Source: Nitrospinota bacterium
GTDB taxonomy: Bacteria > Nitrospinota_A > UBA7883 > JACRLM01
Assembly (NCBI GenBank): GCA_015231995.1
Contig: JADGAO010000004.1
Location: 1 to 33,807, forward strand
Direction of reading: 5' to 3'
Length of the DNA: 33,807 nt
The notes beneath the pieces are model-generated. The model was not told the DNA's origin and did no database searches. It worked only from the letters and a program-made list of their open reading frames with translations. Position numbers and translations under genes: made by a program. Of the stretch, positions 6,456-33,746 are shown piece by piece (positions within the stretch are counted from its first letter, which is position 1; each line of letters starts with the position of its first letter).

Positions 6456-6575
6456 TCGGTCTATGGAATATCCACAACACTGCATAACAAGCTACAACGC
6501 TTAACAACAATTAATTCATAGTGATAAATCAATTCAAGGTCAAGGCTATTGTTGTGACCTGTTGTCATTTATCTT

Positions 6576-6830: not shown

Positions 6831-7058
6831 TCATGCCTCCTTTTTTATCTCTACTGTCTTATCACCTGTTACGGCCATAAGCACCCGTGCACTATACCCT
6901 TTATCTACATGACGTTCTCCTCACTGGTGTAAGCAGTTTATTTGCCATCCGGGTATAGCATCCGTAGTTACTACGTTTTTGTGCATTCTGTCACTAACAT
7001 CGTATACAAATACCTTCCCGTTCCTGTTACGGGTAATCTCGTATAATACATTTTCCAT
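6831..7058 (-). pseudogene. Small ORF (45 codons, in-frame TGA, then 29 more codons)
   Basis: MENVLYEITRNRNGKVFVYDVSDRMHKNVVTTDAIPGWQINCLHQ*GERHVDKGYSARVLMAVTGDKTVEIKKEA*. ATG at 7058 preceded by GAGGAG; TGA at 6921-6923; second stop at 6831-6833. Confidence 0.5.
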
Positions 7059-7070: not shown

Positions 7071-7086
7071 GTGAACTTATGTTCAA
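7071..7086. promoter_or_regulatory. Palindromic putative operator GTGAACTTATGTTCAA
   Basis: GAAC-N4-GTTC core; 12 nt upstream of the small-ORF ATG at 7058. Confidence 0.6.
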
Positions 7087-10276: not shown

Positions 10277-12955
10277 TTACTCCTCCACGTAAATGCTGAA
10301 TCGCGCAATAAGGGGACTTGCATCAAGGGCGTACGGCTGGATACCGGTTTCTTTGGGAATCCGTTTTCGATCTGCGGACGTGTTCAAGTTGATGCGGCCC
10401 TTTCTTAGATCCTCCATAATGTCTTTAAGGCGGGCTACGGCATTTTTGGAAACATCTACCGCAAGCTCCTCCACACCGGGTAGATTGGATGGTAACCAGC
10501 CTTGTGTATCCGTAAGGGCGATTTGGTCGTTCATGGTGAAATACATGACGCCTACCCGCCCTTTCCCCCGAGTTCCGGTAAGCATCAGACGGTAGGCGTG
10601 GGCCTGAATGTCGTAGCCCTTAACCATCCGTTCACGCCTGGCTCCAGAGCTTGATTTTTTATAATCCACCACAAAGCGTCCACCACCGGGAAGCGCAACA
10701 ACGCAATCGACCCGTCCATGTATAGGCGAATCTAGGAATGCGCCCTCCTGGCTTTGCTCGCTTGCTTCAATTACTCCGCCGATATTCTTCAACAGTTTTC
10801 CCCAAGCCTTGGCCGCTTCCCCAATCTCTCTTTCAAGGGAAGCCAGCTCCAACCGCCACTCCGGTGTCAGCAATAAGGGTGCACGTGACCTGGCCATATT
10901 CGCAACTAGTGAAGGGATACGCTTGATGATGGTTTTTTCATTTGGCAACGACGAACCGACCGGGAAAAGTTGCTCAAAGACATCGTGAGCCAGCGATCCC
11001 TTGGTAATAACGTCCAGTCCGTCAACCGTCCAGAGCCGTGGCGTCGCGCAAAGTTGCCCCAGTAACCATGCCAGTGGAGATACCAGGAGCGTATCCAGTG
11101 CGCTGGGTGAAAGCGAGACGATGGAGCCATCTTTTTTGCTGAGCAGGTTTGCGCCTAGTGAAAGGTTTTTTATTTCTATATCTCGCGGAGCTTGCTTTGG
11201 ACGCTTGTTATTGACGGGAACCATCTGCGCTTTCGCCCGGTCTTCGGGGTGGTGCAATTCAAGCGTGAGGTCATCCGCCTTTTTGATATTCTCGAATGTA
11301 CGCGCGATATACGCCAACGTCTGCGATGGGTGTATTTCAGAGCCATCAGAACCGCGCTTTGAAAAAAGGAATGTGAGAGATTCCGAGGCCGCCGCTATTT
11401 GGCGACGGAATAAATTCCTGGAGTTTTCCAAGCGCCTTGAAGGCCGTTCAATATCGATTCTTAAAGCGTTTTCAATGAGGGCCATTTCATCGTCGGAAAA
11501 CACTGGTGAAATCGGGTGAGTGGAAGGATACCTGTCTTTGTTGAATCCAAGTATCAGTAATCTCTTTACCAACCGCCAAGGCTCTTCACCTTCGTAAAAT
11601 ATGGCGACACCCTCCTGGCTGTACTCAGGATCGACAGAAACCTCCACGGAGACAGGAGCTGTCAGCTCCATAACCTCCTCCCAGGGAATATCACGTCCGT
11701 TCCATGTGGAAAGAAATTCAGCAATCACATTTGCGGTTTGATGAAATACCTCGCGTTCTTCAAGGAGACTTTCGTTGTCGCTAATCATCGAGCGGAGGGC
11801 TTGTAGGGCGGATAGCAATTCTTTCGCGGATTCGATTGGAGCTGAAACAAGGCGAACCACATGCGAAAGTAAAGTGTTTCCACGGGCTTTACGTAGAAAG
11901 TATGGCCGGTTATCAATGGCAAGCTGAGCTAGGTCATGCCTTTCAGCGTCATCTAGCGGCAACAGCGGCGAGATCAGGAACGACCCTAACGCCATAGCAG
12001 GGTGGGGAGGCTTGAGCGTCAACAGAAAATGTAAAAGCGTCTCCCTTCCGATGTCGCGCCTTCCACGCTCTGGCATTAGCCCTGCTAGAGGTATTCCCGC
12101 CAAGGCAAAAACCTCACGTAAAGCGCGGCTGTAATCTATGTCATCAGGTACAAGCAGAGCGAAATCTGATGGTCGTAATTTAGCATGCTTCTTAAGCGTC
12201 GTTTGGACAATGCCAGCGGCCAGTTCCGCCTCCTCCTGGTAATCACGAACCGCTAGAATTTGAACGGAATCATCCTTGGGGCGTTTTTCGCCATCTGGAT
12301 CGAAAATGGTTCGTTGAAGATGGCCCAACGCGAGGTTAGAAGACGCGATTGGAGCTATACATAGAGTTTGCTCCGCCAAATCACGCAAAGCGGTATCAAC
12401 AGATTGCTTTTTACCCCTCCTGAGCTTTTTAATTAACGCTATATCCCAAGGTGAAAGGCTCCCATGCTTTGGGTCATATATGACATCTATTTCCCGAAGG
12501 GAGGTGGAATCCGGGGCATTGAGTATCATATTTATAGCATAAAGATGGCTCGGGAAAGGGCATTCAGCATTCCGCCATAGTTTGTAAAGATCAGCCCATC
12601 GCCGATTCACCCGATCTGGTAAAGGCACGGGTGGTTTTGGAGTAAAAGTGTTATCTGGCCCAAGACCTTCGAGGATAACGGAAAGGGTACGAGCCACATG
12701 CTTGAGGGCTTCTTGCGGAGCTACTTCTGCGCTTTTCAGCCAAAAGGCTTTGGGTACGGAATAGAACGCCTCCTGGAGCTTTTCCATCCAAAGATCATCA
12801 GGAGGCGAAAACAGAAAGGAATCAAGAGCCATATGTATTAGCTCGTGTGTGACTCCCACCCTTACGCCAAGCCATCCACCATTTTGGGCCAATGACATTC
12901 GCACCCTGAGGGCGGAAGTCTTGCCATGAACTAATAAAAACGTAAGCTTATTCAT
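10277..12955 (-). CDS. AddB-like protein with C-terminal PD-(D/E)XK nuclease
   Basis: C-terminal GRVDCVVALPGGGRFVVDYKKSS...YDIQAHAYRLML nuclease motif; long inactive-helicase-like N-terminal region; 3-bp gap to the AddA-like gene. Confidence 0.8.
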   Translation of the reverse strand: MNKLTFLLVHGKTSALRVRMSLAQNGGWLGVRVGVTHELIHMALDSFLFSPPDDLWMEKLQEAFYSVPKAFWLKSAEVAPQEALKHVARTLSVILEGLGPDNTFTPKPPVPLPDRVNRRWADLYKLWRNAECPFPSHLYAINMILNAPDSTSLREIDVIYDPKHGSLSPWDIALIKKLRRGKKQSVDTALRDLAEQTLCIAPIASSNLALGHLQRTIFDPDGEKRPKDDSVQILAVRDYQEEAELAAGIVQTTLKKHAKLRPSDFALLVPDDIDYSRALREVFALAGIPLAGLMPERGRRDIGRETLLHFLLTLKPPHPAMALGSFLISPLLPLDDAERHDLAQLAIDNRPYFLRKARGNTLLSHVVRLVSAPIESAKELLSALQALRSMISDNESLLEEREVFHQTANVIAEFLSTWNGRDIPWEEVMELTAPVSVEVSVDPEYSQEGVAIFYEGEEPWRLVKRLLILGFNKDRYPSTHPISPVFSDDEMALIENALRIDIERPSRRLENSRNLFRRQIAAASESLTFLFSKRGSDGSEIHPSQTLAYIARTFENIKKADDLTLELHHPEDRAKAQMVPVNNKRPKQAPRDIEIKNLSLGANLLSKKDGSIVSLSPSALDTLLVSPLAWLLGQLCATPRLWTVDGLDVITKGSLAHDVFEQLFPVGSSLPNEKTIIKRIPSLVANMARSRAPLLLTPEWRLELASLEREIGEAAKAWGKLLKNIGGVIEASEQSQEGAFLDSPIHGRVDCVVALPGGGRFVVDYKKSSSGARRERMVKGYDIQAHAYRLMLTGTRGKGRVGVMYFTMNDQIALTDTQGWLPSNLPGVEELAVDVSKNAVARLKDIMEDLRKGRINLNTSADRKRIPKETGIQPYALDASPLIARFSIYVEE

Positions 12956-13518: not shown

Positions 13519-13526
13519 ATGATTAA
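13320..13526 (+). pseudogene. IS3-family transposase OrfB, N-terminal fragment
   Basis: ATGA overlap with orfA; MKHAWIEAQDRDLELTGMCAALDVSVSGYRAW... ends abruptly after KGAYGT; no DDE catalytic domain. Confidence 0.85.
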
Positions 13527-16500
13527 TTGGTTTGTGGCCATACATTCAATTTCACACGCAAATCGTTAACAATTTCACTTGGAAGGGAGCGAATTCCAGA
13601 AATATCTTTTTCCCCTTCACTTGCGTCTTCCTCTTCGTTTTCGGGTACTATCGTAGCCAAGTCGCCGCCAGTTAAAACCTCAAATATCTGAGCGCGCAAT
13701 AAAAGTTGTTCAAACATTCGCTCATCATAGGTTCCCGCCAAGTATGGCAAACCTATCTCAAGCCTGGGTTTCCCTCCTTTGACGTGCGCTCGTTCACGGG
13801 AAGTTTTGCTTCCAATACGATCTATACGTCCAGTGCGTTGCTCAATTGTTGCAGGGTTCCACGCAAGGTCAAAATGCACAACATGGCGGCAGTATCTGTG
13901 AAGATCGATTCCCTCTTGTCCAACTGAAGTGCAAACTAGAATTTCGGGAAACAATGGAGAATTAAATCCGGTAAATTTGCGTTGCCTTTCTTTAGTTGAG
14001 CCTTTAACTAAATCCACCAAAGGACTTCGCAACTTGGTGACATCAAGCATTTCCGCACGGGAGCTTGAAGGATCGTCAAACGTTCCGGCGGCGCCTTTTA
14101 AGTCCTCTAAAAATACTGTAAAACGATCGGCTAGGCTCTCCGTCTGATTTTCAAGTGGCTGATAAAATCTCTCTACTAAAACATGTCCCCACCCTTCCTC
14201 CCTCTGGTGTGTTTTTTCAGGAATTAGACGCAATAGCACAGAATCCCATGAGATGGCACGGCGCAACCCATGAAACAATTCTCGACGAGCAATCCACTTG
14301 GCATCATCATGCTTGCCGGAACCAATATCTTCAATCATGCTGTGAATATAAGAATGTAATTGGATAATAACCTCCCTGATATGCTCAGAGGAATCGGTCT
14401 GTCCCGCAAGCATCGGAGTGTTGACGCCCAGGAAAAAGTTAGGGCTTTCGGCATATTGATCCAAAATAGGCGTTTCGCGCTTTTTGCGTGCCGCTTCCCG
14501 CCGTGTGACAAGACGAGTCGTCAAGTCTTTTACTTTGGAAGGATCAGGAGTTACATTCCTCCGTTCGTAACGACTTCGCCAACCTTTTTCATCATGTCCC
14601 TCTAACTGACCGTCTTCGCTTTGAGCTTTTCCCTGCGCCTTTCCCACTCCACCAGTTGCTTCGTCTCCATCAATGCCATAAACGGTTTCAACCCATTTAT
14701 GGTTGGCTATTCGAGTAAGAAGTTTGCTCCATCCGGAATCCTCTACACCTTTCCTTAATAACCGTTGTGCGATAACGTGCTCTGTTACACGCGTCAGAAA
14801 AACACGATCCGGTCGTTCATCCGCCATGTCCACGCCATAAATAATTCCGGCTTTTGCAATCTCTGCGATATCTACATCCGTTAAACTAAGCTCATCAGGC
14901 ATGATTGAGTTTGCCCCATAATTCTTTTCCCGACGCGCCCAAAAATATGACCACAACACACGGTCTAAAATCAGCCCAGACAGATCGCGTTCCTTGCTGG
15001 TAAGCCGACTTCGTATGGTTCGCATCCCATCTTTGCCGAGTTTTAATTTCTGCTTTCTGGCTTCAATACGTTTTTCGATACGCTCATTAATAATTTCATT
15101 CAGGCGATCTGCATTGTTTTCGCGAAAACAAAATATCAATGTCTTTTCGCCTTTCTCCCAAAGCTTTTCAACCATATCCACAACAGCTACAACCTTTGGG
15201 TGACTATGGTCTGTGTCGCTAACAAGCTTCTTTAGCAACTTAAATCGCATCTGCTGGCCGGTCGTAACTTCAAATGCTTTTTTAAGCCTATTTCCTTCTG
15301 CGCTTTTAAACAACGTGGAGTAGCAACCGGTCATGTCTCCTGCAAGCGAGGAGCGGCCTTTCTTTCCCTCCAACTGCTTCATCTCAGTGACGCATCGCAT
15401 AAGAAGATAGTGTGGTAGTTCTCCATCCCCACGCACGTCTATCCCCGCAGATCGGTGGAACGCTTCACAGCCTGGTTTGGGAACCGGCGGGCTGACAAAT
15501 TCCCTTCCGACAAGGTACTGGCGATGACCCTGCTTCCTCCTGTGACGGATAACCATCTTTCCCAATTCATCGGAATAATCCGCATTGAAGGCGTACAGAC
15601 GCAACGCTTCACGATAAAATTTGCGGCGGCTAGGATCAATGTCGCTAACAGCGTCATTTGCATATCTGTCGATTTCTTCTTGTCTTAGTGCTCCATGTTG
15701 GGAAGCGAGCTCCAGTAAATGCTCCCGGTTACCCGCAAGTTTTTTCCAGTCATTAATTATGTCATCCTGAGACAACTCTGCAGGAAGACTCCGCCATGCT
15801 TCTTGGAAAAGCCTGCTGGCGTCCTGAGACGCCTTTACTACTGTTGCAATGGTGCGTTCACGATAATCTTTAAGAAACATCCTTCGTTTTTGGGAACCAT
15901 CCTTTTGCGGCCTAGGATTTATGTGCTCACCCGCTTCCAGGATTTTCAGCATCTCATCTGGTTTAAGCTGAAACGGAGTAGCGGTAAGCATCAACAATCG
16001 CCTAGTATGTGGGGCCACAATATCAATAAAATGCTTGTAAACTTTAGGATGATTTTTCCAGTTGTGAGCTTCATCTACGATCACCAAGGGGAAATCACGT
16101 TTAAGCAGAACTGGAATAAGCTTTCGATATAATTTATTCAACTCTGGAGCGACTAATTCCTTCAATATTTCGTCACGGCCACGAGCGTATGGATTAGTTA
16201 TGTCAAGACATTTTTGCCGGATATACTCAATATCATTAGCATAATCAGGCATGTACAATGCGTGATATATATCGTCTTGATCAATTGCCCAATCAGATTC
16301 ATCAGGAAGATTGGTGAGCTGAGTATGATCTTCTGTCCATCCCATCATGTTATCTTTGAGCAATTTTTTACGGCGGTCATTTGTAAAGCCATTAGACCAG
16401 TATCGGAATAGAGCCGCCAACATAAAGCATTGACGCTTAGCGTATCCACTTTGTCTACTGAAAACAGATTCCTTAGCCACTAAAATGCGCGGGGAGTTTA

Positions 16501-16942
16501 ACCGGCGTTGGGAAAAGCGAATCAGTGTATCCAGATCGGCAATTTCTTCTTCAGCAAGCCGGAACCACTTTTCGGCATCGTCACTTTTTTCAGGTGCAAT
16601 ACAACGATTTACAAACTCTCCAACTTCTTTACGCCATTTTTTGTAAAGTGAATCTCCTGGAACTAGAATCAAAACACTGCCACACGCTCCAGATAAATCC
16701 GCCTCTTTCCCATCACTGCGCATACCTTTTAGGATGGAAAATGCCGTAGCCAAAGCCACAAAAGTTTTCCCCATGCCTACTTCATCAGCGACAATCTGGA
16801 CTTCACGGCGCTGTTTGTCATCAGGATCGAAAAAGCGGGACAACAGTGTCTCCACTGTAACCGTTTGACGTTTGGCGTCATTGGGGTCGGTCATCCGCTC
16901 TTTATCCTTGCCCAGATCAATCTCAGGGGAAATCTTAATCAA
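13523..16942 (-). CDS. SNF2-family (SF2) helicase/ATPase
   Basis: DEVGMGKTFVALATA, VIVDEAHNWKNHPKV, MLTATPFQL, CTSVGQEGIDLHRYCRHVVHFDLAWNPATIEQRTGRIDRIGS; 4-nt ATGA overlap with the PLD gene. Confidence 0.92.
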   Translation of the reverse strand: MIKISPEIDLGKDKERMTDPNDAKRQTVTVETLLSRFFDPDDKQRREVQIVADEVGMGKTFVALATAFSILKGMRSDGKEADLSGACGSVLILVPGDSLYKKWRKEVGEFVNRCIAPEKSDDAEKWFRLAEEEIADLDTLIRFSQRRLNSPRILVAKESVFSRQSGYAKRQCFMLAALFRYWSNGFTNDRRKKLLKDNMMGWTEDHTQLTNLPDESDWAIDQDDIYHALYMPDYANDIEYIRQKCLDITNPYARGRDEILKELVAPELNKLYRKLIPVLLKRDFPLVIVDEAHNWKNHPKVYKHFIDIVAPHTRRLLMLTATPFQLKPDEMLKILEAGEHINPRPQKDGSQKRRMFLKDYRERTIATVVKASQDASRLFQEAWRSLPAELSQDDIINDWKKLAGNREHLLELASQHGALRQEEIDRYANDAVSDIDPSRRKFYREALRLYAFNADYSDELGKMVIRHRRKQGHRQYLVGREFVSPPVPKPGCEAFHRSAGIDVRGDGELPHYLLMRCVTEMKQLEGKKGRSSLAGDMTGCYSTLFKSAEGNRLKKAFEVTTGQQMRFKLLKKLVSDTDHSHPKVVAVVDMVEKLWEKGEKTLIFCFRENNADRLNEIINERIEKRIEARKQKLKLGKDGMRTIRSRLTSKERDLSGLILDRVLWSYFWARREKNYGANSIMPDELSLTDVDIAEIAKAGIIYGVDMADERPDRVFLTRVTEHVIAQRLLRKGVEDSGWSKLLTRIANHKWVETVYGIDGDEATGGVGKAQGKAQSEDGQLEGHDEKGWRSRYERRNVTPDPSKVKDLTTRLVTRREAARKKRETPILDQYAESPNFFLGVNTPMLAGQTDSSEHIREVIIQLHSYIHSMIEDIGSGKHDDAKWIARRELFHGLRRAISWDSVLLRLIPEKTHQREEGWGHVLVERFYQPLENQTESLADRFTVFLEDLKGAAGTFDDPSSSRAEMLDVTKLRSPLVDLVKGSTKERQRKFTGFNSPLFPEILVCTSVGQEGIDLHRYCRHVVHFDLAWNPATIEQRTGRIDRIGSKTSRERAHVKGGKPRLEIGLPYLAGTYDERMFEQLLLRAQIFEVLTGGDLATIVPENEEEDASEGEKDISGIRSLPSEIVNDLRVKLNVWPQTN

Positions 16943-19038
16943 CGCATAACCTCCCTTAAGCCATAAGTCTCTTTAACAGTTTTTTCATATTTTGCAAGTG
17001 AGGTTTTTGGAGCAAAAGCGGTGGGATCAATACGTTTCATAGCTTTAAGGTCGTCATAGACTTTTCGCATAGCGTCATCGAAGATACTCCTAAACTCATT
17101 TGACTTCTCATTCTCTGGAGCATTACCCATTGCTTCTGCCATACAAATCAATATCTCCAGCATTTGAAATGAGCATGCCGTAATAGATCGCCTGTCAGCG
17201 TCAGCTCCCGTTGAACCTGCTTTGCGGATTTGGCGGGATAGTGCCACTGGACTAACGTCACCAAGCAATGCCATTTTCAATATTCGCCCTGAAACCATAG
17301 CTTCCCGAATGTTTTTAGCTAGCCCAGGCAGAGCCTCCACAAACGAGCGGATACGGTATGAAGTTATTTTGGAGGTATCAACTAAAATTGATTCATCCTT
17401 AAAGGATTGTTCATTTTCAGATGTGCAGATAGTTTCATCATCAAGGTTGCCGAATATTTCTTCCCATGAAATGCGGTCTTGGTAGTAGTTTAAAATGTCA
17501 TTTTCTCCAACGCTGTCACCATTAGGTGACAAGGGTAAGATATCTTTACTGTTAACCGCAACGTTGATGGGAAACCGGCGTTCGCCACCTGGATTCCAGC
17601 GGATCATGACTTCTTGGGCACTACATAAACGTTTTTTAGCCTCATCTGTTAATTCTATAGTCATCTCGATTTCGGTTGTGATTGAACCACCATGGAAAAG
17701 CGGGCCTCCAACTCCATTACCATCGCTTTCTGGCGCTAGGTAGATAGACCAATCCAATAGATCGATATTTGGGGCAAGTTTGCAGCGAAGCTTATAACGT
17801 CTATCCTCATTGATATCCTCGTGTTCTAACTCCACCGAAATGACAAACGAAGGCCATTGCGGAGTCAGATTTACATCAGGCTTTAATAAAGCATGAATGC
17901 TTGTTTGAGAATCCCCTTCCAACTTTGCTTCGGCGCAGTATGACGGCAATAGGGTATCTAACCGTTTGCTTTCGCGTATTTTGCGTAATAAAAGAAGCCC
18001 CGTTTCAATATTCTGATTCCACCCCTTCCAAGTGCAGTTGGCTGATCCTAGATATGCAAGCGCTCTCTCTGCTCCTTTTATCAAAAGCGTTTTTGCGTGC
18101 AATGCTCGGTTGCCACCATCATCGTCCGTCGGATTAACCGCGACGGCGCGGGAGCTATGAAAGCCCAGAGAAGAAAAATCAAAGGTGGCGTAGTCATGTG
18201 GCAAAATGGGCCGAAAAGTAGTAGCCCCAGGTGTTGCGGCTGTGGCCTCGGTATAAAGGGTTAATTTGCATTGCGGCGCTAAAATCAGAGCCTTACTCAG
18301 TGCTTCAATCGGGCCACCTTTAACTTTTTCCGCCCAGAACGGCGAAACTATATCTACGGAATGGACAAGTTCATTTTTAGGCCAAGCTTCCGCAATTGCA
18401 TCCAGCAGATTGGAATGGCCTGAGCCACTCCAAATAAAACGATCAGATGCATCGCCCTGAACGCCGTCCCATTTACTAAGTCGACTTATTGCTTCTTCTA
18501 CCGTTTTACTCCCCTCACTGGCCTGCGCTTCATTAAGCAAATTGCGTAGACCTTCTATCGCTGAGAGAATTAAATAAACCATTTCAGGTTTCGCGGCTGA
18601 TGCCATCATGACAGCCGCCACCTCCCGATTTGACCGGTAACCTTTATGTGTAAGATTGGCGCTACCAGTAACCAAGACAACTGCTTTTTCGGCGAGTATT
18701 AGCACGACCTTACTATGGAGCTTTACGCCTTTCCAAGGGTGAACGCTTATACGAAGCGAGCGTGGGCGAGAATGGTACCCAGCAGGGTCGCACATAAGCG
18801 TCACATTGCCCAATTCGCTCAATCTTTTCTCCAGCTCTACTCTGTGAGAAACACTTGTGTCATCCCATGCGCCAAGACCTAGTATGGTGGGAAGAAAGTC
18901 TGTTTCTATGAATGCGGCATCCAACTCATAAGTAACACTGACAATGCCTTCTAATCTCCCATACGAATTGTCAAGGCGCAGACGGTCCAATAGTCTACGC
19001 TTGACAGTCTCTTTTGCAGTTGCAGGAGATGCGCCCAT
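16939..19038 (-). CDS. Phospholipase D-like (HKD) nuclease family protein with two HKD motifs
   Basis: HSKVVLILAEKAVVLVTGSANLTHKG and HAKTLLIKGAERALAYLGSANCTWKGWNQNIE. Confidence 0.88.
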   Translation of the reverse strand: MGASPATAKETVKRRLLDRLRLDNSYGRLEGIVSVTYELDAAFIETDFLPTILGLGAWDDTSVSHRVELEKRLSELGNVTLMCDPAGYHSRPRSLRISVHPWKGVKLHSKVVLILAEKAVVLVTGSANLTHKGYRSNREVAAVMMASAAKPEMVYLILSAIEGLRNLLNEAQASEGSKTVEEAISRLSKWDGVQGDASDRFIWSGSGHSNLLDAIAEAWPKNELVHSVDIVSPFWAEKVKGGPIEALSKALILAPQCKLTLYTEATAATPGATTFRPILPHDYATFDFSSLGFHSSRAVAVNPTDDDGGNRALHAKTLLIKGAERALAYLGSANCTWKGWNQNIETGLLLLRKIRESKRLDTLLPSYCAEAKLEGDSQTSIHALLKPDVNLTPQWPSFVISVELEHEDINEDRRYKLRCKLAPNIDLLDWSIYLAPESDGNGVGGPLFHGGSITTEIEMTIELTDEAKKRLCSAQEVMIRWNPGGERRFPINVAVNSKDILPLSPNGDSVGENDILNYYQDRISWEEIFGNLDDETICTSENEQSFKDESILVDTSKITSYRIRSFVEALPGLAKNIREAMVSGRILKMALLGDVSPVALSRQIRKAGSTGADADRRSITACSFQMLEILICMAEAMGNAPENEKSNEFRSIFDDAMRKVYDDLKAMKRIDPTAFAPKTSLAKYEKTVKETYGLREVMR

Positions 19039-19048: not shown

Positions 19049-20443
19049 TTATACTTTATAGAATCCATCGGCTGTACCGGTGCGATAGGAGTGTGGGATA
19101 ATCGTATCCGTCTCCACGGGTTCAGCGGTAAATGATTTTGGCGCGGCATTGTTGAGCGCGAAGCCAGCCTCTGTACGCTCCACCCATGGAGCCTTTGACC
19201 GACCATTGTCATATTTGCCACGTTGAACGTCTTCATGGCGGTGCTGGATCACTCTGGCAAGTTCAACTGTATCAGAGCTGGCATCCCGCATTAGCTCAAA
19301 AAGACGGCGGATATCTTCGATTTTCTCCATTCCTCTACTCATATGTTCGGTGTCTAGATTGGAGATGTGCGCCAAAAACGCATCAACAACAACTCTGACA
19401 TTAGCTCCAGTCCGTTTTAAAATTTCGTCGGTTCCAATAATGTCATCAGCAAGACGTCCCCATTGTCCGCAAAGCCAAATCAGACGATTCAAAATGAAAA
19501 GTGCGTGCTTATAGCACTTCTCATATCGAACAATAGAGACAATAGCCTCTTTCAAGTCCTTATTTCTATTACCAATGTTCTGCTTAATGCGAGTAAGCCT
19601 GTCAAACTCAGTTTCGCCATTTTTATATGGTCGCTGACGTAACAGTTCGGCCGTCCGCTTGCGGATTTGGTTGAAATTGAACGCTTCTTGTAGCAGTCGT
19701 CTTTCTTCAGCTCCTGCCGTTCCTTCAAGAAGACGGGCGCGTAGGCCCCAATCTGTCAGATCACGGCGGCTGACTTTTTCAGAGCCACCTCCTACAACAT
19801 CCTTGACGGCCTTCGGCATATTTGTTTCCCGAATAAATGCCTCTCCTAGCGGAAGACCAAGGTCATTTGTCAAAGTGAGATTTTTACGGTTGTTAAAGAG
19901 TCGTAAGCGTTCAGCGACACTTGCGTAAACACCAAGGGCTCCATGAGAAGCTTGCCGTGAAAGAAGACGATAATCATGGCCAACATACTCCCTTCCTACT
20001 ACACGTAAAGCTTCCGCTTGGGCATAGGTTACGCCTCTTACACCGAAAGAATTAAATCGGGTGGCGCTATCATCAGATTTAGTTTCAAGGTCTGCAAGGG
20101 TGATTGCCAAAGCCCATAACCTTTCCAGCCGTAACAACGAATCTTGGCGCTTTCGAATAGATTGCTGACCATTTCCAGTATCTTGAACGAGAGCCAGCCC
20201 GGCGCACAGCATGGCAAAATAGCGAGGTTGCGATGCCACGTTTGTGATATCGGGCAATATTTTATCTGCCAGAAATCCAGAGCTCCGGTCAAAGCCAAGA
20301 GGATCAACGCTACCACCGGGAGTATCCTTTGGATCAAATGCGGTAAGAAAGAAATCGTCTATTGTGATCTCCCCCAGGCGCAAGGCCAGGAAGCAAATAC
20401 GATGACTTTTGATGCGATGAGCATAATTGATGATCCATATCAA
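19049..20443 (-). CDS. Uncharacterised protein, first gene of the predicted defence operon
   Basis: 464-codon ORF 10 bp upstream of the PLD gene on the same strand; no motif recognised. Track start is TTG, so the N-terminus is uncertain. Confidence 0.75.
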   Translation of the reverse strand: MIWIINYAHRIKSHRICFLALRLGEITIDDFFLTAFDPKDTPGGSVDPLGFDRSSGFLADKILPDITNVASQPRYFAMLCAGLALVQDTGNGQQSIRKRQDSLLRLERLWALAITLADLETKSDDSATRFNSFGVRGVTYAQAEALRVVGREYVGHDYRLLSRQASHGALGVYASVAERLRLFNNRKNLTLTNDLGLPLGEAFIRETNMPKAVKDVVGGGSEKVSRRDLTDWGLRARLLEGTAGAEERRLLQEAFNFNQIRKRTAELLRQRPYKNGETEFDRLTRIKQNIGNRNKDLKEAIVSIVRYEKCYKHALFILNRLIWLCGQWGRLADDIIGTDEILKRTGANVRVVVDAFLAHISNLDTEHMSRGMEKIEDIRRLFELMRDASSDTVELARVIQHRHEDVQRGKYDNGRSKAPWVERTEAGFALNNAAPKSFTAEPVETDTIIPHSYRTGTADGFYKV

Positions 20444-20818: not shown

Positions 20819-20834
20819 GTGAACACAAGTTCAC
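20819..20834. promoter_or_regulatory. 16-bp perfect palindrome GTGAACACAAGTTCAC, putative operator upstream of the defence operon
   Basis: Inverted repeat GTGAAC/GTTCAC with 4-nt spacer in an intergenic region; same motif at 31248 and 7071. Confidence 0.65.
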
Positions 20835-20899: not shown

Positions 20900-21055
20900 T
20901 CAGCTTGGGTTTCGATTGAATTTCTCTCTCCATTCGGCCATCGCTCTTCGCATCCGATAATATGTCCGCAAAATGGAATTGCCCGTTCCTTCGTACATTG
21001 CATCCCACCACATGGAATCAAACCTCAACCGCTTTTCCTTTTTCATTTCTACCAT
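20900..21055 (-). CDS. Small basic protein (51 aa) overlapping the 3' end of the integrase gene
   Basis: MVEMKKEKRLRFDSMWWDAMYEGTGNSILRTYYRMRRAMAEWREKFNRNPS*; ATG at 21055 lies inside the last codons of the recombinase gene. Below the supplied track's length cutoff. Confidence 0.45.
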   Translation of the reverse strand: MVEMKKEKRLRFDSMWWDAMYEGTGNSILRTYYRMRRAMAEWREKFNRNPS

Positions 21056-21600
21056 GATAGCTCTCTAACAAGACCGGTATCCATCGTGGTAGCTATGTAA
21101 TAGTCCAGGCTGGCGATAGATTTATGGCGGGAATAGGCTTTTGTTTTCACCAGATCATGGCCGGTCATCTCATAAATCTTGGTCACGAAAGCTTTCCTGA
21201 AACTATGGGTGTTTATCTTGCCGTCAATGCCAAGCGCCTTACAGACCGCTTTGACCATGAGGCTGGCCTGTTGCCGGGTGATTGGTTTGTTATCGCCGTT
21301 GCGAGACAAGAACAGAGGGGTTTCATCGGTTACGGTGATGCCCTGGTCTTCGTAATGCGCTTTAAGCTCCACCACGGCCATTTTGTAAGCCTCCGGTATC
21401 GGATAGCTCGTATTATACCCCTGCTTGGAGGCTTTTATCTGAACGTATGAGCCGGACACATCGCCGAAGGTCAATCCCAAGCCCTCGCTTATGCGTGAGC
21501 CAAAAGAAAGCCCGGTCAATACCAGAACGCGGTCACGAATTTTCAAACTACCAAGAATTTCCCGGATTTCGGAAGCTTCCAAGACCCTGCAACCCCTCAT
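21049..21600 (-). CDS. Short tyrosine recombinase (catalytic domain only)
   Basis: SRISEGLGL (Arg I), HSFRKAF (H-x-x-R), YSRHKSIASLDYYI (H and Tyr nucleophile); 183 aa; AAGGTAAGGG upstream of the ATG. Confidence 0.88.
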   Translation of the reverse strand: MRGCRVLEASEIREILGSLKIRDRVLVLTGLSFGSRISEGLGLTFGDVSGSYVQIKASKQGYNTSYPIPEAYKMAVVELKAHYEDQGITVTDETPLFLSRNGDNKPITRQQASLMVKAVCKALGIDGKINTHSFRKAFVTKIYEMTGHDLVKTKAYSRHKSIASLDYYIATTMDTGLVRELSW

Positions 21601-21757: not shown

Positions 21758-24700
21758 CTACCATGCCGCCCAATCTCCGCACAACAACTCGGCCTGCTCC
21801 AAAACAGTCTGGGTCGCCTTTTCCTGTTTGTCAGGCGGGTAGCCGTATTTTCTCAAGATTCGCTTTACCGTTATCCGCATTTGGGCACGGACGCTCTCCC
21901 TAACTGTCCAGTCTATGGTCACGTTCTTTTTTATGGATTCCACCAATTCCCGCGCAATCTTTTTCAGTGTCTCATCACCCAATTCTTTCGCGCTGTCATT
22001 GACCTCCAGCGCGTCGTAGAACGCAATTTCGTCTTCGCTCAAACCAAGTCCTTGCCCATGCCGCGCCGCCGCATTCATCTCCTTAGCAAGCGCTATGAGT
22101 TCCTCGATAATTTGCGCCGTTTCGACAGCCCTGTTCTGATACTTCCTGATAGATTGCGCCAGCAGTTCAGCAAACGAGCGGGATTGAACCAGATTTTTCT
22201 TGGAGCGCGTTTTGATTTCGTCGTTCAATAGTTTCCGCAAAAGCTCAACGGCCAGATTCTTATGTGGCATCCCGCGCACTTCCGCTAAAAACTCATCAGA
22301 CAGAATAGAAATATCCGGCTTTTCCAATCCAGCGGCGGTGAAAATGTCTATCACCTCGCCGGAAGCTACCGCCTTTGAAACAATCTGCCGTATAGCGTAA
22401 TCCATGTCTCCCCCGGCCTTCCCCCCGTTACCCGTAGATTTCGCCATCGCTGACCGCACGGACTGGAAAAACGCCACGTCATCCCGTATCTCAATCGCCT
22501 TCATATGCGGAACCGCCAACGCGAACGCCTGCGACAACTCTGTAACGGATTTCATCAGCCGCGCCTTGCCGTCTTCTTGCAAAAGAATATGCTCCTGCGC
22601 CGCTGGGAGAAGTGTCAGCTTTTGCTCCGGTCTGCCTGTTATCCAATGTGACCAGTCGAATCCATGAAACAAGCCGCAACACACTTCGTATTTTTCTAAC
22701 ATCACCGCAACGGCTTCAGCCTGATCAATTGCAGTCTTTCCAGTTCCGCCGCTTTCGGTGTAAACGGACATTGCCTGACGCAACTGATCGGCCAGCCCCA
22801 AATAATCCACCACAAGACCGCCCGGTTTGTCTCTGAATACCCGGTTCACACGGGCGATGGCCTGCATCAATCCATGCCCCCGCATCGGCTTGTCCACGTA
22901 CATGGTATGCAAACAAGGGGCATCGAATCCCGTAAGCCACATATCCCGCACGATTACTATTTTGAAATTGTCCCCCGCATCCTTGAATCTTTTCGCCATT
23001 GTTTCCCGGCGGGGTTTATTGCGAATATGCTTCTGCCAATCCAGTGGGTCGGAAGCGGAGCCGGTCATCACAACCTTGATTACCCCCCTGCCATCCTCTT
23101 CATCGTGCCATTCCGGGCGAAGCTTTATGATAGCGGCGTATAGGTCAACGCAGATTCGCCTGCTCATGCAGACAATCATCGCTTTGCCCTCCATCGTTTC
23201 AAGCCTCTGCTCGAAGTGGGTCACAATATCCTGGGCGATAAGGTTCACCCGTTTCTCCGCGCCAACGATGGCTTCCAACGCCGCCCACTTGGTCTTTAGT
23301 TTTTCCTTGCTGGTTTCTTCCTCTCCTTCGGTGACTTCCTCAAACTCTGTGTCTATCCTCGGCTTCTCGCTCTCGATAAGCTCCAGTTTCGCCAACCTGC
23401 TTTCGTAGTAGATAGGCACGGTCGCCTTGTCCTGAACGGCTCGCTGGATGTCGTAAACGCTTATGTAGTCGCCAAACACGGCGCGGGTGTTCTTGTCCGT
23501 AAGCTCTATTGGAGTTCCCGTAAATCCGATAAACGATGCGTTCGGCACCGCATCCCGCATGTGCCGGGCGAATCCATCTATAAAGTCGTACTGGCTACGA
23601 TGCGCTTCATCGGCGATGACGACAATATTGTGTCGCTCGGATAATGTGGGGAACTTGTCGCCCTTTTCTTCCGGCATGAACTTCTGAATGGTGGTGAATA
23701 TCACCCCGCCGGACGCTACTTGAAGAAGTTTTCGCAAATCATCCCGGTTTGTAGCCTGAACCGGCTTTTGACGCAGGATTTCATGACAACGGGAAAAAGT
23801 GCCGAATAATTGATCGTCCAGATCGTTCCGGTCGGTAAGTATAACCAGCGTCGGGTTCTCCATAACCGGATGCAGTATCACCCGCCCGGCGTAGAATGCC
23901 ATCGTCAGGCTCTTACCGCTCCCTTGCGTGTGCCACACAACGCCGCATCGTTTGTCGCCTTTCGGCTTTGAAGCGGCGACCGTAGATTCTACAGCGTTCA
24001 ACACGGCGTGGAACTGGTGATACCCGGCCAGTTTCTTTATGATCTCGCCCCCGCCGTCATCTTCATAAACGATGAAGCTTCGGATCAGGTTTAAGAACCG
24101 GCGTTTCTCGAATACGCCCTTTATCATGGTTTCTAGTTGCGGCATGGATGCTGGAGCCGGTTTCTCGCCTTCGATAGTGCGCCACGGCATGAACCGCTCT
24201 TTGTCGGCGGATATGGTTCCAATCCGCGCCTCTAACCCGTCGGAGATTATCAGGGCTTCGTTAAAATTGAACAGGGAAGGAATTTGTTGTTTGTAGGTTT
24301 GCAGTTGGTTGAACGCTGACCATATTGTTGCGTTTTCGTCAGTGGGATTTTTAAGCTCAATTACGGCCAGCGGCAAACCGTTTAGGAACACCACCACGTC
24401 CGGCCTGCGGTTGTGTTGCCCCTCTTGCACGGTGAACTGGTTCACAACCAGCCAATCGTTATTATCCGAGTTGTCGAAATCTATTAACCGCGCATGGTCA
24501 TAACCCGTGGAACCGCCTTCCCGTTGATATTCCACCGAAACGCCATCAACAAGCATACGGTGGAAAGATCGGTTGTTAAGAAGCAGTGATGGCGCATCCT
24601 GTCGGATTACTTTCCGAAATGCGTCTTCACGAGCATCAGGCGGAATATTGGGATTGAGGCGGGACAACGCATCCTTTACCCGACCAGCCAGGACAGTTTC

Positions 24701-24832
24701 CCGATAATCTCCCCGTTCAGCCCCAGGCTCCCCCGGCGCGATGGATGGGCCGTTAAGCACGGAATAGCCCAGCCCTTCAAACCACACCAGCGCGGCTTCT
24801 TCAACAGTGGATTCGGCTATAGACATCTTCAT
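21758..24832 (-). CDS. hsdR: Type I restriction endonuclease subunit R
   Basis: [20 protein letters not shown] nuclease motif, [62 protein letters not shown]. Confidence 0.95.
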
Positions 24833-24850
24833 CTTCGATAATATGGCAGC

Positions 24851-27070
24851 TCATTTGACATTGGCCGGGCCACCTAATATTTGTACCATTACTAATAGAG
24901 CCCCCAAGCCCATTGCACCCCAACAGAAATTCCTCCAAGGCTTTACCCAGAATCCTACAATCACAGAGGAGACGATAAGACAAAATCCTGCTTGAAGGCC
25001 GTAACTGTTAGAATTACTCATTAGCCAATTCCACGGCCACACGAAATTAACAGCGAGCTCAAAGACCATGATAATGAGAAGTGAGACGAGAATGCTTGCA
25101 ATTTTCGCGGCGGTAAGATACCGGGCTTCGGCTTTTTGTCTAAGCAAAGCTTCTTGATTGGCCTTTTCCTCTATCGAATCCTTCTCTAATCTCAACGCTT
25201 CAAATTTCGCAGATGTATCTTTGGCATTAGTTTCTGCATCCTTTTGGGAGTTCGCAAGTGCTTCTTTTTCAAGCTCCTTCGCCTGTATAGTTTCATGCGC
25301 TTTTGCAGCTTCTATTGCCGCGACCTGCTTCTGCTCGTTAAGTTCATTCTCAGCTCGCTCTTTGTCAGACCGCAAAGCTTCAATCTGCCTCGCCTTCGCT
25401 GCGTTCTCTCCAAGGAGCATCTGATTCTCAGCAGCAATAGCTGACTCTATCAGAGCTTGGAACTCTTCATCGCTATTTGTAGTTCGAAGGCCATCAATCA
25501 GACGATCATTGGAAAGCATTCTTTTAGCCGTTTCTTCAGGAAAGTCTTTATATGTCGCGAGCAGGCCAAGCATCCTAGAGCAAGCTTTAGCCGCGCCACT
25601 ACCGATGGTTCTAAACTCCGGCATAGCAAAAGTCTCTGCAAATGAGCGATCAAAGTCCTGACTGGCTGGGACGAATGGGCGGAGGATTTGCCAAAGTATG
25701 TTTGGCAACACAACGGATGCGTGAGCATTAGCTTTTCGGCTCGCATCGCTGTCGAACCGGTATAGCATATAGTCACATGTCACAAACAGTGCACCTGCTT
25801 CAAGTGTGGAAGTGCCGTTTTTTCGAAGAGTACGTACGCAATCCAGGACAGCAACATCGTGAGCTATCAAGTCGTATGACTTTTCCTTATTTATGCTCTC
25901 TAGGAACTCTTTATACTCGGCTTCAAGGGTGGCACGTTCTTCCAGTCGATTTATTTGTGGCTGGAAAACCTCAATTCCCTTGTTCTCCAATAGAACATCC
26001 ATGTGCTTATACGGCTGGAAAAATGTATCAACATCAATACCAGTTTCTGCGTTTTTCTGGTGGTATTTGAGTTCGATGCCGGACATGAAACTCGAAGTAG
26101 TGGCTGCTCGGCTAAGTGATTGCGTCCATCTACGTCTATGGAGTACGTCACAATAATAGGATATTGAAGAGATAAGTTCCCGAAGCGTTGCTTCGTGATA
26201 TCTCAATTTGAGAGGTAGCTTGTGTTTGGTGACAGCATCCAGCAACTCATTTGAGACTTCTACAAGGTGATGCACATGGAGGCCGAGAATCCCGAAAAGG
26301 AAGTTGGTATCGCAAAATAGCATAAGTTGACTGAGTTTCTCTCGGAAACGCGCCGCGACCTCAGGAGAAACCGCCAATGAGAAATAATTGGTTGCCCCAT
26401 CAGCGCATTCGGCAATAAACCGAGCCCTCTCTGAATTCTTCCCGACGGTGCCGAGGAAGTCGGTGATTGCGTGCTTGGCAGATGCTTGAAGGGGCGGATC
26501 AAACCTCGCATTCACTGCCTCAGTTAGAAGGCGCGATAGGCTTTTAGCATAGTCTGATGGAAGTTCAACAGAGGGATCGAGAAATACTGCAACCTGTATC
26601 CCGTGACGCAGAAAGGCTTTGGCGAGATAGTCATGCAAAGCAGTCCATGCGAGATCAGGATTAAGATCAGAAAATCGTTGTGTGATTTCCGATATCCATT
26701 GCATCTTGACGCGCTCTTGCAATTGAGATGCTTGGTCAATGCGCTCCTTGACTTTCTGTCGAGTATCGGGCAAAAGGACGTAGTTTGTTCCCATGGGCAT
26801 GTAAACCTGTCCGGAGGATGTCAGGTGATCCAACGCTTTTTGAACCTGATGATCTTGCGCTTCAATGCCAAACATGACACTCAATATTTTTGCTACGTCC
26901 TGAATGCTAGATGCCTTCTCCTCCTCAAAGGTGAGTAACGTATGGAGGATTAACTCCTGCAAACTTTCCTCGGGGCTTTTTGTCTCCGCAATTGCAATAT
27001 AATTGCACATCTGCTGAAGTGCAGTACCTGGTGCAGCAAGCTTGATGCTCGGATCTGTGGATACATTCAT
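24851..27070 (-). CDS. PIN-like domain protein with coiled coil and C-terminal transmembrane helices
   Basis: LMLFCDTNFLFGILGL, EATLRELISSI, HDVAVLDCVRTL, ALFVTCDYMLYRFD give a D-E-D-D PIN-like pattern. Then an E/K/A-rich coiled coil and hydrophobic segments IASILVSLLIIMVFELAV, AGFCLIVSSVIVGFWV, GAMGLGALLVMVQIL. Confidence 0.65.
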   Translation of the reverse strand: MNVSTDPSIKLAAPGTALQQMCNYIAIAETKSPEESLQELILHTLLTFEEEKASSIQDVAKILSVMFGIEAQDHQVQKALDHLTSSGQVYMPMGTNYVLLPDTRQKVKERIDQASQLQERVKMQWISEITQRFSDLNPDLAWTALHDYLAKAFLRHGIQVAVFLDPSVELPSDYAKSLSRLLTEAVNARFDPPLQASAKHAITDFLGTVGKNSERARFIAECADGATNYFSLAVSPEVAARFREKLSQLMLFCDTNFLFGILGLHVHHLVEVSNELLDAVTKHKLPLKLRYHEATLRELISSISYYCDVLHRRRWTQSLSRAATTSSFMSGIELKYHQKNAETGIDVDTFFQPYKHMDVLLENKGIEVFQPQINRLEERATLEAEYKEFLESINKEKSYDLIAHDVAVLDCVRTLRKNGTSTLEAGALFVTCDYMLYRFDSDASRKANAHASVVLPNILWQILRPFVPASQDFDRSFAETFAMPEFRTIGSGAAKACSRMLGLLATYKDFPEETAKRMLSNDRLIDGLRTTNSDEEFQALIESAIAAENQMLLGENAAKARQIEALRSDKERAENELNEQKQVAAIEAAKAHETIQAKELEKEALANSQKDAETNAKDTSAKFEALRLEKDSIEEKANQEALLRQKAEARYLTAAKIASILVSLLIIMVFELAVNFVWPWNWLMSNSNSYGLQAGFCLIVSSVIVGFWVKPWRNFCWGAMGLGALLVMVQILGGPANVK

Positions 27071-28446
27071 TAGACAAGCCCCCCTATAAAGTTCTCGGAT
27101 TCGTTGATGCGGATTTCGCCGGACAGGAGTTTCGGTAATAGCGCATCGCGGATGGTGGCGAGGGTGTGGGATTCATGCCGATTGGCATTGACTCTCTCGT
27201 AAATCGGCGCACAGATGCGATGGAATTCATCCATGATGGGCACCTTGTCGGGTAAAGCCACTTGCCATTTGCCGATTACCTCAGGTCGAACAGCAGGGTA
27301 GGCTCCACCATCCGCTTGATGGCCCAAATGTTCGAAAATTTCCGGTTGTGTCAACGCTGTGTGAATAAAGCTCCACGGAGCTTTTACTGGAGTGAAGACC
27401 GCGAAGCCCGTTGATGCAATCAGGCTGGGTGAAGGATTTAGACATAGGAAGTACGACCCACGTTCTGGTCGCACAGTGGACATCACCGTGTCACCATGCC
27501 GAAGTCGTCGGCGTGCCCGACTAGGTTCTTCCCCACGCTGGAAAATTTGTGTGGCGCCAATTTCACCACGCACAACCTCGGAAATTTCTACATATTCTAT
27601 CCGGCTAATCTTATCGTTCTTACCAAGTGTCCATGCGTTAATTTCTGATAGCTCCGCAATCCGAGCTAAACCCCACCCCTTGGGAATCTGGCCTAATTCG
27701 GAGTCCTGGAAGCTGTCGGGGAAAAGGTCGAGGATTTCCGGTGTCATGTAGGGGCAGGCCTGCGTGCCTGCCCGTTGCGCGTTTGCCCAGTTTGAGGGCG
27801 CCCACACAGGGTCGCCCCTACGGGCGCGGACGGGATCGAAATCCACAAACCACGATTTGAATATCGCCCGCGCCATCCCCTCCAGCGTCTCGTTCATTCG
27901 CCGGTTCAACTCTATCTTGTCATCCAACGTTCCGAGGATATGTGCAATGGCGCGTTGTTCAGGAAGGGGGGGAATCTGGATTTCTATTCTATTGATATCC
28001 CTTATTGGGAGTTGCGGTTGTGCGCTTCCTGTTTGGAGTGCTAGTACTTGCTCCCGAAAGAGCGCAGACCTAACAAAAAAATATAAAAAACGTGGATATA
28101 GGGCCGTAGTTTTAGCCCTAAAAATTACCATCCCAGAATTTATTCGTATGTTTTCAAAATTAATAGAATCATCGAAGTATGCCGCATTTCCAACTGTTCC
28201 TCGTGTAGTTAAAACCACATCATTTCTGATTAACTTTCCTTTTCGTAACGAAGCGTCTTTCTCCGCTGTGACAAAAGAACAGTCGGAAAAATTAAATCCA
28301 TTGGCCGAAACGTTTCCAGCGTTCAGAAATAAGCAATGACCTGCTTTTGAAAATTCGGTCAGATTAGGGTAATTCGTCCCACGATCACCGTCTATTATTT
28401 CAAGAGGTGCATTTTCAAATTTCATGGTCTGCCACTCACCCGCCAT
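27070..28446 (-). CDS. hsdS: Type I restriction-modification specificity subunit
   Basis: PLPEQRAIAHILGTLDDKIELNRRMNETLEGMARAIFKSWFVDFDPVRA and FPDSFQDSELGQIPKGW; two TRD-sized halves. Confidence 0.95.
   Translation of the reverse strand: MAGEWQTMKFENAPLEIIDGDRGTNYPNLTEFSKAGHCLFLNAGNVSANGFNFSDCSFVTAEKDASLRKGKLIRNDVVLTTRGTVGNAAYFDDSINFENIRINSGMVIFRAKTTALYPRFLYFFVRSALFREQVLALQTGSAQPQLPIRDINRIEIQIPPLPEQRAIAHILGTLDDKIELNRRMNETLEGMARAIFKSWFVDFDPVRARRGDPVWAPSNWANAQRAGTQACPYMTPEILDLFPDSFQDSELGQIPKGWGLARIAELSEINAWTLGKNDKISRIEYVEISEVVRGEIGATQIFQRGEEPSRARRRLRHGDTVMSTVRPERGSYFLCLNPSPSLIASTGFAVFTPVKAPWSFIHTALTQPEIFEHLGHQADGGAYPAVRPEVIGKWQVALPDKVPIMDEFHRICAPIYERVNANRHESHTLATIRDALLPKLLSGEIRINESENFIGGLV
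27748..27821. repeat. 74-bp REP/MITE-like double-hairpin element inside hsdS
   Basis: Terminal inverted repeats GTAGGGGC...GCCCCTAC; internal hairpin GGGCAGGC-CTGCGT-GCCTGCCC; second imperfect hairpin GGGCGCCCACACAGGGTCGCCC. Confidence 0.75.
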
Positions 28447-29530
28447 GCCCCGGCTCCTTCATGGAGGTTTCCAATTCCTCGATACTTGGCAATTCGCCTT
28501 TCAGCTTTTTCGGCAGGGTTTCCGTCAGTTTGTATCCGGATACACCTATTGGTTTCCGGGTATCGCGCAGGGCGTATTCAACAACCACCTTGTTCTTCGA
28601 TTTGCACAGGATTATGCCGATGCTTGGCTGGTCATCCTTGTGGCGCAGGAGGTCATCCACGGCGGAAAGGTAAAAGTTCATCTTTCCCGCGTATTCCGGT
28701 TGGAATTCCCCTACTTTTAGCTCTATAACCACGAAGCAACGAAGGCGCAAGTGGTAGAAGAGCAGATCAATATAAAAATCATCCCCGCCGATTTCCATAT
28801 GGTACTGGCTACCGACAAAGGCAAACCCTACGCCAAGTTCCAGCAGGAACGCCCTTATCTGCTCCAGCAGGGCTTTTTCCACGTCCCGTTCCTTGGCCTC
28901 TTCGCCGATGGTCAGGAAGTCAAAGACGTATGGGTCTTTCAATATCTGCCGGGCAAGCTCTGATTGCGGCGCGGGAAGGGTGCGGGCGAAGTTGGAAACG
29001 GCTTTCCCTTGCCGCTTGTACAGGCCGCTCTCAATCTGGTGGACAAGAACGTTGCGCGACCAGCCGTTTTGAATGGTCTGGCGGATGTACCATTCCCGCT
29101 CAATGGAGGCTTTAACCTTATCCAAAAGAACTACGTTATGAAACCAGGGAATTTGTGCAGCAACCTGCTGCACAAATTGGCTGTCCTGGTATGCCTCGGC
29201 GAATAACCTCATATATTTAAGGTTACGCGGGGAGAATCCTTTCATCTCCGGGAACTCGCGCCGCAGGTCTTGGGCTAATCTGTCCACAACTTTTGCGCCC
29301 CAACCCTCCTGGCGCTGGCTATCGAGAATCCGGCGGCCAATCTCCCAATAGAGCAGAACCAATTCGCGGTTGGCGGCAAGGCCAGCGCGAATCTGGGCGG
29401 AACGAATCTTCCCTTTAAGGTCGTCGAGCAGGAGCGCATAGTCCACAGGGGCTTTGCCTGATTGTGCAACAGGCTGTTGGACAATTTCGAAATCAGGCTT
29501 TCGAGGCTTGCCTTTACCCGCCATAGCCAA
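28436..29530 (-). CDS. DUF1016/YhcG-family PDDEXK nuclease domain protein
   Basis: [50 protein letters not shown] and [44 protein letters not shown]. Confidence 0.92.
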
Positions 29531-31088
29531 GCTCCTTCAGGTTTGCCCAAATCATTTTGTCGAGTTTGGCGGATTCGGCGCACTGCTCCTTTAACTTGGC
29601 GGTGAGATGCTTCATTTTATCGTCGAACGGCTCGTCGTCGTCTTCCACCTCTTCCGCGCCGACGTATCGCCCCGGTGTGAGGACGTATCCATGAGCGGCG
29701 ATTTCTTCCGTCTTGGCGCTCTTGCAGAAGCCGGGGATATCCGCGTATTTGCCCGCGTCTTTTTCGCCACGCCATGCGTGATATGTGCTGGCGATACGGG
29801 TTATGTCTTCACTGGTAAGCTCGCGGTGAACGCGATCAATCAACGTCCCAAGCTTGCGAGCGTCTATGAAAAGCGTCTCGCCCCGGCGGTCACGGAAGCG
29901 GTTATTCTTCTTGTCGCGGGCGATGAACCATAGGCAGACGGGAATCTGCGTGGAATAAAAAAGTTGCCCAGGCATAGCTATCATGCAGTCCACTAGGTCA
30001 GCTTCGATAATCTTCCGACGGATTTCACCCTCGCCAGACTGATTGCTGGACATGGAGCCGTTGGCAAGAACAAACCCGGCGTATCCCGTGGGCGCAAGGT
30101 GATGAATGAAATGCTGAACCCACGCATAGTTGGCATTGCCCGCAGGTGGAACACCGTATTTCCAGCGTTTGTCTTCGCGCAGGCGATCACCGCCCCAATC
30201 GCTAGAGTTGAAGGGTGGATTAGCCAGGATGTAGTCCGCCTTTAAATCTGGGTGAAGGTCGCGGTGAAACACGTCGGCATGTTCGCTACCAAGGTTGTTA
30301 TCTATGCCGCGAATGGCCAGGTTCATTTTGGCAAGGCGCCACGTGGTGGGGTTGGATTCCTGACCATAAACAGCTATGTCGCCGATGCGTCCGCCGTGGA
30401 CTTCCACAAACTGCTCGCTTTGAACAAACATGCCACCGGAGCCGCAACAAGGGTCGTATACCCGCCCCTTGTATGGCGAGATCATTTCGACCAGAACTTG
30501 AACGACACATCGAGGGGTATAGAACTGGCCGCCCTTCTTGCCTTCCGCGCTGGCGAACTGCGAGAGGAAGTATTCGTACACACGGCCCAGAACGTCTTTT
30601 GAGCGGCTTTCCTTGTCGCCAAGGCCAATTGTGCTTACAAGGTCTATCAGTTCGCCCAGCCGGTGTTTGTCGAGGTCTTGGCGGGCGTAATTTTTAGGAA
30701 GAACGCCCTTGAGGGAAATGTTATCCCGCTCAATGGCAGTCATGGCATCGTCCACCAGTTTTCCGATAGTGGGTTGCTTGGCTTTAGATTGAAGATGGCT
30801 CCACCGCCCCTCCTGTGGAACCCAGAAGACGTTTTTAGCCTTGTACTCATCCGGGTCTTCCGGGTCGGCTCCGTGGTGTTTATCCGCAAACAGCTTGGCG
30901 TGATGTTCCTCGAAAGCGTCGGAGATGAATTTCAGGAAGATAAGGCCAAGAACGACGTGCTTGTATTCCGCCGCGTCCATGTTGTTACGAAGCATATCGG
31001 CGGCTGACCACATCTTGGCTTCAAAGCCAAGGTTGGCCCCGTTATTGGGTTTGCCTTTTGCGCTTCCTGCTTTTTTACCCTTCGCCAT
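29514..31088 (-). CDS. hsdM: Type I restriction-modification DNA methyltransferase subunit M
   Basis: [15 protein letters not shown] (SAM binding), [12 protein letters not shown] (NPPF), [25 protein letters not shown] upstream of the ATG. Confidence 0.96.
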
Positions 31089-31247: not shown

Positions 31248-31263
31248 GTGAACTTGTGTTCAC
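31248..31263. promoter_or_regulatory. 16-bp palindrome GTGAACTTGTGTTCAC, putative operator upstream of hsdM
   Basis: Exact reverse complement of the 20819-20834 site; intergenic between hsdM and the terL-like gene. Confidence 0.65.
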
Positions 31264-33370: not shown

Positions 33371-33746
33371 TCACTTCATCCGCCATTATCCTGTTGATCT
33401 GGGAAATGAATTTGGAAATCTCCGAACCATCGCTGGATATTCCATTGGATTCGGTCATTTTTAACTCGAAGGTGCGTTTGAGCTTGGTCATCTCAAGTAT
33501 TTCCAGGGAAGCCTTGAGCCTGACACTGTCGTTATCTGACCCCATCATACTTACCAATACCATCGCGGCGGTTTCTGCCTTTGCTTCAAGAAGGGAATAC
33601 GCCCGTTCCCGCTGTCGCCGGGCGTAATTGGTCAAGGCCTTCTGAAACTCCGGTTTCTTCCGCCAATTCAGTATTGTTTGGTCGCTTACTCCACATTCTT
33701 TGGCTATTTCAGCAAGGGTTTGTCTGCCAAGAAACAAGAGTTCCAC
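33357..33746 (-). CDS. Terminase small subunit-like HTH protein
   Basis: MELLFLGRQTLAEIAKECGVSDQTILNWRKKPEFQKAL HTH; overlaps the terL-like start by 14 nt. Confidence 0.65.
   Translation of the reverse strand: MELLFLGRQTLAEIAKECGVSDQTILNWRKKPEFQKALTNYARRQRERAYSLLEAKAETAAMVLVSMMGSDNDSVRLKASLEILEMTKLKRTFELKMTESNGISSDGSEISKFISQINRIMADEVNENG

Follow-up and report, generated by a model that had tools for sequence, protein, structure and literature searches.

A palindrome repeated across a defence-carrying prophage-like element of Nitrospinota is probably a site of the element's own regulator rather than part of the host SOS response

Results

A prophage-like element in a tRNA-Arg(CCT) gene and its defence cargo

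The window analyzed in the current work is the whole of contig C303 (33,807 nucleotides), taken from a draft genome which is 86% complete and in which the element described here is incomplete. The leftmost 6.4 kb of the window are host chromosome (histidine kinase, cytochrome) and are followed by a repeat of the 3' part of tRNA-Arg(CCT), while contig C28 ends in a complete tRNA-Arg(CCT) and breaks off immediately behind that gene. Considering that a 3' repeat of this kind, combined with a full tRNA gene, is what integration into tRNA genes classically leaves behind, the contig from ≈6.4 kb rightward is, judging from its sequence, an integrative prophage-like element located in tRNA-Arg(CCT).

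From left to right, and all on the minus strand, this element carries a defence operon, a recombinase gene, a type I restriction-modification (R-M) operon and the terminase genes (Table 1). Its large terminase is ≈50% identical to TerL of the temperate Stenotrophomonas phage DLP5, in which ParB is separated from TerL by one small gene. The small contig C258 of the same genome encodes a DUF488 protein, a phage DAM-like/GNAT protein and a ParB-like protein; it has a GC content of 45.7%, and its composition and tetranucleotide usage are nearer to those of the island than to those of the host. Because ParB, the small gene and TerL are adjacent in DLP5, C258 would probably adjoin the right end of C303, which carries TerS-TerL.

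The defence operon (7109-20443) consists of an Azaca-like trio (464-aa protein, phospholipase-D-like protein and helicase), the AddA-like and AddB-like nucleases and a 197-aa protein. As in Azaca (ZacABC), the phospholipase-D-like and helicase genes match the ZacB and ZacC models, whereas the 464-aa protein matches neither ZacA nor any other model and AddAB-like genes have been added. Among 385 genomes, a single homologue was found for the first defence gene, on a 16-kb contig (G334:C245), where the phospholipase-D-like and helicase genes occur in the same order; identities to the window proteins are ≈32-33, 30 and 40% (464-aa protein, phospholipase-D-like protein and helicase, respectively), and no AddAB-like genes are present.

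Within the R-M operon, a 739-aa protein (24851-27070) sits between hsdS and hsdR, for which one weak PHROG match was obtained but no Pfam family above cut-off, no PADLOC family and no plasmid relative, and a YhcG/DUF1016-family PD-(D/E)XK nuclease (28436-29530) is located between hsdM and hsdS.

Table 1 Features of the window and position of the palindromic sites
Feature	Position	Strand	Remarks
Attachment-site repeat, 3' part of tRNA-Arg(CCT)	6402..6456	-	left boundary of the element
Degenerate copy of the palindrome	6577..6592	.	GTGAACTTAAGTTTAC; 1 mismatch, spacer TTAA
45-codon ORF	6921..7058	-	follows the 7071 site directly; leader GAGGAG resembles a ribosome site
One-mismatch copy of the palindrome	7071..7086	-	GTGAACTTATGTTCAA as the window reads, TTGAACATAAGTTCAC on the minus strand; ≈22 bp after the UvrD-gene stop, ≈12 bp before the small-ORF ATG
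UvrD-type helicase with C-terminal PD-(D/E)XK nuclease, AddA-like	7109..10273	-	
PD-(D/E)XK protein, AddB-like	10277..12955	-	892 aa
SNF2/DEAD helicase, ZacC/PDC-M27C-like	13523..16942	-	
Phospholipase-D-like protein, ZacB/DrmC-like	16939..19038	-	
First protein of the defence operon	19049..20443	-	464 aa, no family; G334 homologue
Perfect palindromic site	20819..20834	+	GTGAACACAAGTTCAC; 376 bp upstream of the first defence gene (start 20443), ≈215 bp downstream of the recombinase gene
Tyrosine recombinase	21049..21600	-	183 aa, catalytic domain only; R, H-x-x-R, H, Y residues present
Type I R-M operon (hsdR, 739-aa protein, hsdS, YhcG-family nuclease, hsdM)	21758..31088	-	
Perfect palindromic site	31248..31263	-	GTGAACACAAGTTCAC on the minus strand, plus-strand letters GTGAACTTGTGTTCAC; ≈160 bp upstream of hsdM
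Phage terminase large and small subunits	31463..33746	-	large subunit (TerL) at 31463-33370

Sequence, placement and copy number of the palindromic sites

A preliminary description of the window had reported a palindrome at 20819-20834 which recurs as its exact reverse complement at 31248-31263, and both copies were found as reported, the spacer ACAA being identical in the two in addition to the arms. The copy described at 7071-7086 was likewise recovered, with one mismatch and followed by the 45-codon minus-strand ORF, for which no Pfam match was obtained; the degenerate form placed at 6576-6593 is present with one mismatch, its coordinates being corrected to those of Table 1. The four sites can be written in a common form, GTGAAC-(W)(Y)AA-GTTCAC, the spacer being constant at 4 bp. 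Their two-fold symmetry is perfect or near-perfect, the spacer sequence is shared as well, reading W-Y-A-A on one strand, and conservation stops at 16 bp (6-bp arms and N4), the flanks not being conserved.

All four sites are located between genes, in agreement with the preliminary description, in an element whose intergenic share is 6.7% (P ≈2e-5), and each of the large intermodule gaps of the element holds a palindromic site. The proposal that three of them precede separate transcription modules is true only loosely, as the 20819 site is 376 bp away from the start of the defence operon and the 7071 site lies just downstream of that same operon. The distances from site to gene start are unequal (376, ≈160 and ≈12 bp) and shuffled sequences contain promoter-like matches as often as the surroundings of the sites do, so that the sites show no operator geometry in common. 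No Rfam match was obtained anywhere in the window.

Across the 3.23-Mb genome, a third exact copy of the 16-mer is present on C258, inside an ORF. When GTGAACWYAAGTTCAC was searched at ≤2 mismatches, seven places were retrieved genome-wide, five of which are on C303 and C258, and the reversed-pattern control at the same threshold retrieved none. In this genome-wide scan, of the kind suggested in the preliminary description, the exact copies are all on C303 or C258.

Distribution of the site outside the element

The homologous operon of G334, which occupies a different setting, might be expected to share the palindrome if the latter came with the defence genes as one of their own components. 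The whole G334 contig, including the region upstream of the trio, has no site at ≤2 mismatches. This one homologous operon indicates that the site belongs to the element and not to the defence system.

The perfect site was absent from the 11 other members of the order that were searched, and in ≈380 further genomes (385 in total) sites were scattered, mostly single and with mostly unrelated spacers; on these grounds a general regulon of the host, or of its class, was rejected as the meaning of the palindrome. Two class relatives (G017 and G019) hold one site each, of the same spacer type and inside unrelated ORFs, which is a probable, though not fully explained, coincidence. In G017, the 16-bp palindrome type (ATAA spacer) falls within a gene that probably encodes a restriction enzyme (927-2125 of that locus) and has a C5 methylase on one side and a Vsr-like gene on the other. 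As regards the element itself, the site is two-fold symmetric, repeated within one element and absent from the order relatives searched, in line with an element-specific operator family.

Alternative explanations for the repeated palindrome

The presence of a small tyrosine recombinase, encoded directly downstream of hsdR, raises the alternative that this enzyme acts on the palindromes at the junctions (att, defence operon, R-M operon, terminase) and so inverts or exchanges blocks of cargo. The perfect copies are inverted with respect to each other and flank exactly the block formed by the recombinase gene and the R-M operon, the protein is a compact catalytic domain of FimB size with its active-site residues, and each large intermodule gap has a site. 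Tyrosine-recombinase sites consist of inverted arms of ≈9-13 bp around a crossover region of 6-8 bp, however, and the palindrome has neither dimension, its conserved 16 bp with 6-bp arms, N4 and no flanks being short for a recombinase core. In addition, the C258 copy lies within an ORF, and relatives of the recombinase (≈30% identical, in Firmicute phages and cyanobacterial plasmids) showed no comparable setting at the two plasmid members inspected, so that recombination is regarded as an unlikely function of the sites.

Chance repetition of a palindrome, combined with selection by a reader looking for one, was evaluated in two ways. Fixing the motif beforehand gives an expectation of 0.06 sites for the element at ≤1 mismatch. 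When no motif was fixed, and every repeated palindrome with 6+6 arms and a 0-12 spacer was counted, one of 60 simulated windows (first-order Markov) yielded a family of four. The window taken alone is accordingly moderately surprising and only suggestive. The exact word also occurs singly in unrelated genomes elsewhere, and a scan with GTGAACAYAAGTTCAC of one genome per species (GTDB 220) returned at least 118 single-copy matches in unrelated phyla, approximately at chance level. Within the genome under study, on the other hand, ≈0.0015 copies of the exact 16-mer are expected by chance (2 x 3.23 Mb / 4^16) and a third copy exists on a phage-type contig, which is at odds with the chance frequency that the preliminary description had named as a refutation. 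Occurrence within ORFs, named alongside it, applies to the C258 copy but to none of the four window sites. Chance is quite unlikely because of this third exact copy, the clustering of five of the seven ≤2-mismatch places on C303 and C258, the shared spacer and the intergenic position of all four window sites.

It is very unlikely that the palindromes are dispersed partition-type (centromere) sites of a phage able to live as a plasmid, as is N15. Such a reading draws on the ≈50% identity of the terminase to that of DLP5, which lives as a phagemid (PMC5834331), on the ParB-like gene of C258, and on the precedent of N15, whose centromere sites are, like the palindrome, short inverted repeats scattered over a temperate phage genome (according to the passage of PMC5016525 that cites Ravin and Lane 1999). 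Unlike N15, the window element is integrated, at a tRNA gene, and shows no partition operon, and no ParA, on C303 or on the probably adjoining C258. Furthermore, the C258 ParB-like protein is short, probably placed beside the terminase, without a Pfam match, and similar to PHROGs that mix nuclease, methyltransferase and ParB-like genes, and the DLP5 stretch examined is devoid of the site.

Transcription terminators or RNA hairpins are highly improbable, even though a plus-strand terminator score was obtained for two of the four sites. The stem does not exceed 6-7 bp, a T-containing tail is present at only two of the four sites, no T-run was scored at the 20819 or 7071 site, and the plus-strand orientation is opposite to that of all large genes.

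The palindrome does not match the probable LexA box of the lineage

The GAAC-N4-GTTC core is the Gram-positive LexA core, and on this basis the preliminary description had proposed a LexA/SOS box. The host has one clear LexA (contig C354), with a recognition helix (SSPATVHKHL) which appears similar to the Bacillus type. The window sites share core and spacing with the Gram-positive box CGAAC-N4-GTTCG, yet differ from it in their outer bases, which are GT/AC and not C/G.

The suggested search for enrichment upstream of lexA and recA retrieved the palindrome core from none of the 21 readable lexA promoters and none of the 22 recA promoters of the Nitrospinota class. Instead, a direct repeat, TTCG-N7-TTCG, precedes a TTA-like box in 19 of the 21 lexA promoters, and TTCGTATTTTTTTCGTTTA is found at -81 of the host recA promoter, although over the class as a whole only 2/22 recA promoters contain TTCG-N7-TTCG, a repeat which occurs in ≈1% of 200-base bins of the sequence examined. 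TTCG-N7-TTCG(N)TTA is thus the probable LexA box of the class, and TTCG-N7-TTCG-N-TTA is absent from the window. LexA motifs vary widely, and a direct-repeat box with the same spacing, GTTC-N7-GTTC, is known from Alphaproteobacteria (PMC8565304).

Given that the lexA promoters use TTCG-N7-TTCG and never GAAC-N4-GTTC, a link between the palindrome and the host SOS response appears unlikely, and the specific proposal that the sites are host LexA boxes through which the defence genes are SOS-induced is scarcely credible. Besides removing this attractive but wrong reading, the comparison offers the probable SOS box of the Nitrospinota class to other workers.

Discussion

A proposed element-encoded regulator as the best explanation

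A repressor site of the element is favoured because of the symmetry of the palindrome, its confinement to the element and its placement, and the palindrome is probably the docking site of the element's own regulator. In such a scheme, one dimeric, sequence-specific DNA-binding protein of the integrated element would recognise the palindrome; it would most likely be a transcription repressor encoded outside the assembled window, would occupy several dispersed places, mainly the gaps between cargo modules, and when bound would probably dampen transcription of the cargo or of the lytic block during residence. We give even chances to the more precise statement that the palindrome binds one dimeric regulator encoded in the unassembled part of the element.

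The single island regulator of the preliminary description agrees with sites that are element-confined, intergenic and absent from the host order, but no regulator gene was identified, the window having no HTH repressor gene other than that of the terminase small subunit (TerS). The label of a palindromic operator of the defence operon is correct in that a site is present upstream, and is weakly supported since that site is 376 bp away and the search for a regulator gave none. The position of the C258 copy inside an ORF, the varying distances to gene starts and the lack of consistent promoter overlap also count against an operator, and no literature on the half-sites as an operator was found.

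The arrangement can be compared with the stoperators of the Cluster A mycobacteriophages L5 and Bxb1, where several copies of one short repressor site are spread over the phage genome (PMC6550527, PMC9283540). The element resembles these phages in having one short site in several dispersed copies. The stoperators, in contrast, are 13-bp asymmetric sites, present in up to ≈30 copies per genome with one predominant orientation, whereas the known sites of the element number five at most, are palindromic and occur in both orientations, and a repressor was not identified.

It is possible, though rather doubtful, that a prophage repressor jointly controls the Azaca/AddAB-like and type I R-M modules by means of one dispersed palindromic operator, such that resident-phage immunity and cargo are switched together. 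If true, a prophage regulator acting over separately acquired defence modules would explain how mobile elements hold their cargo silent and at what point they release it, an open question in defence-island biology.

Operators near an S24/CI-like repressor encoded on another contig (C111) were also considered and rejected, the best match there having two mismatches, which is not above chance. The same genome contains a second prophage contig, which is Mu-like and carries a split C5 methylase (G000:C199).
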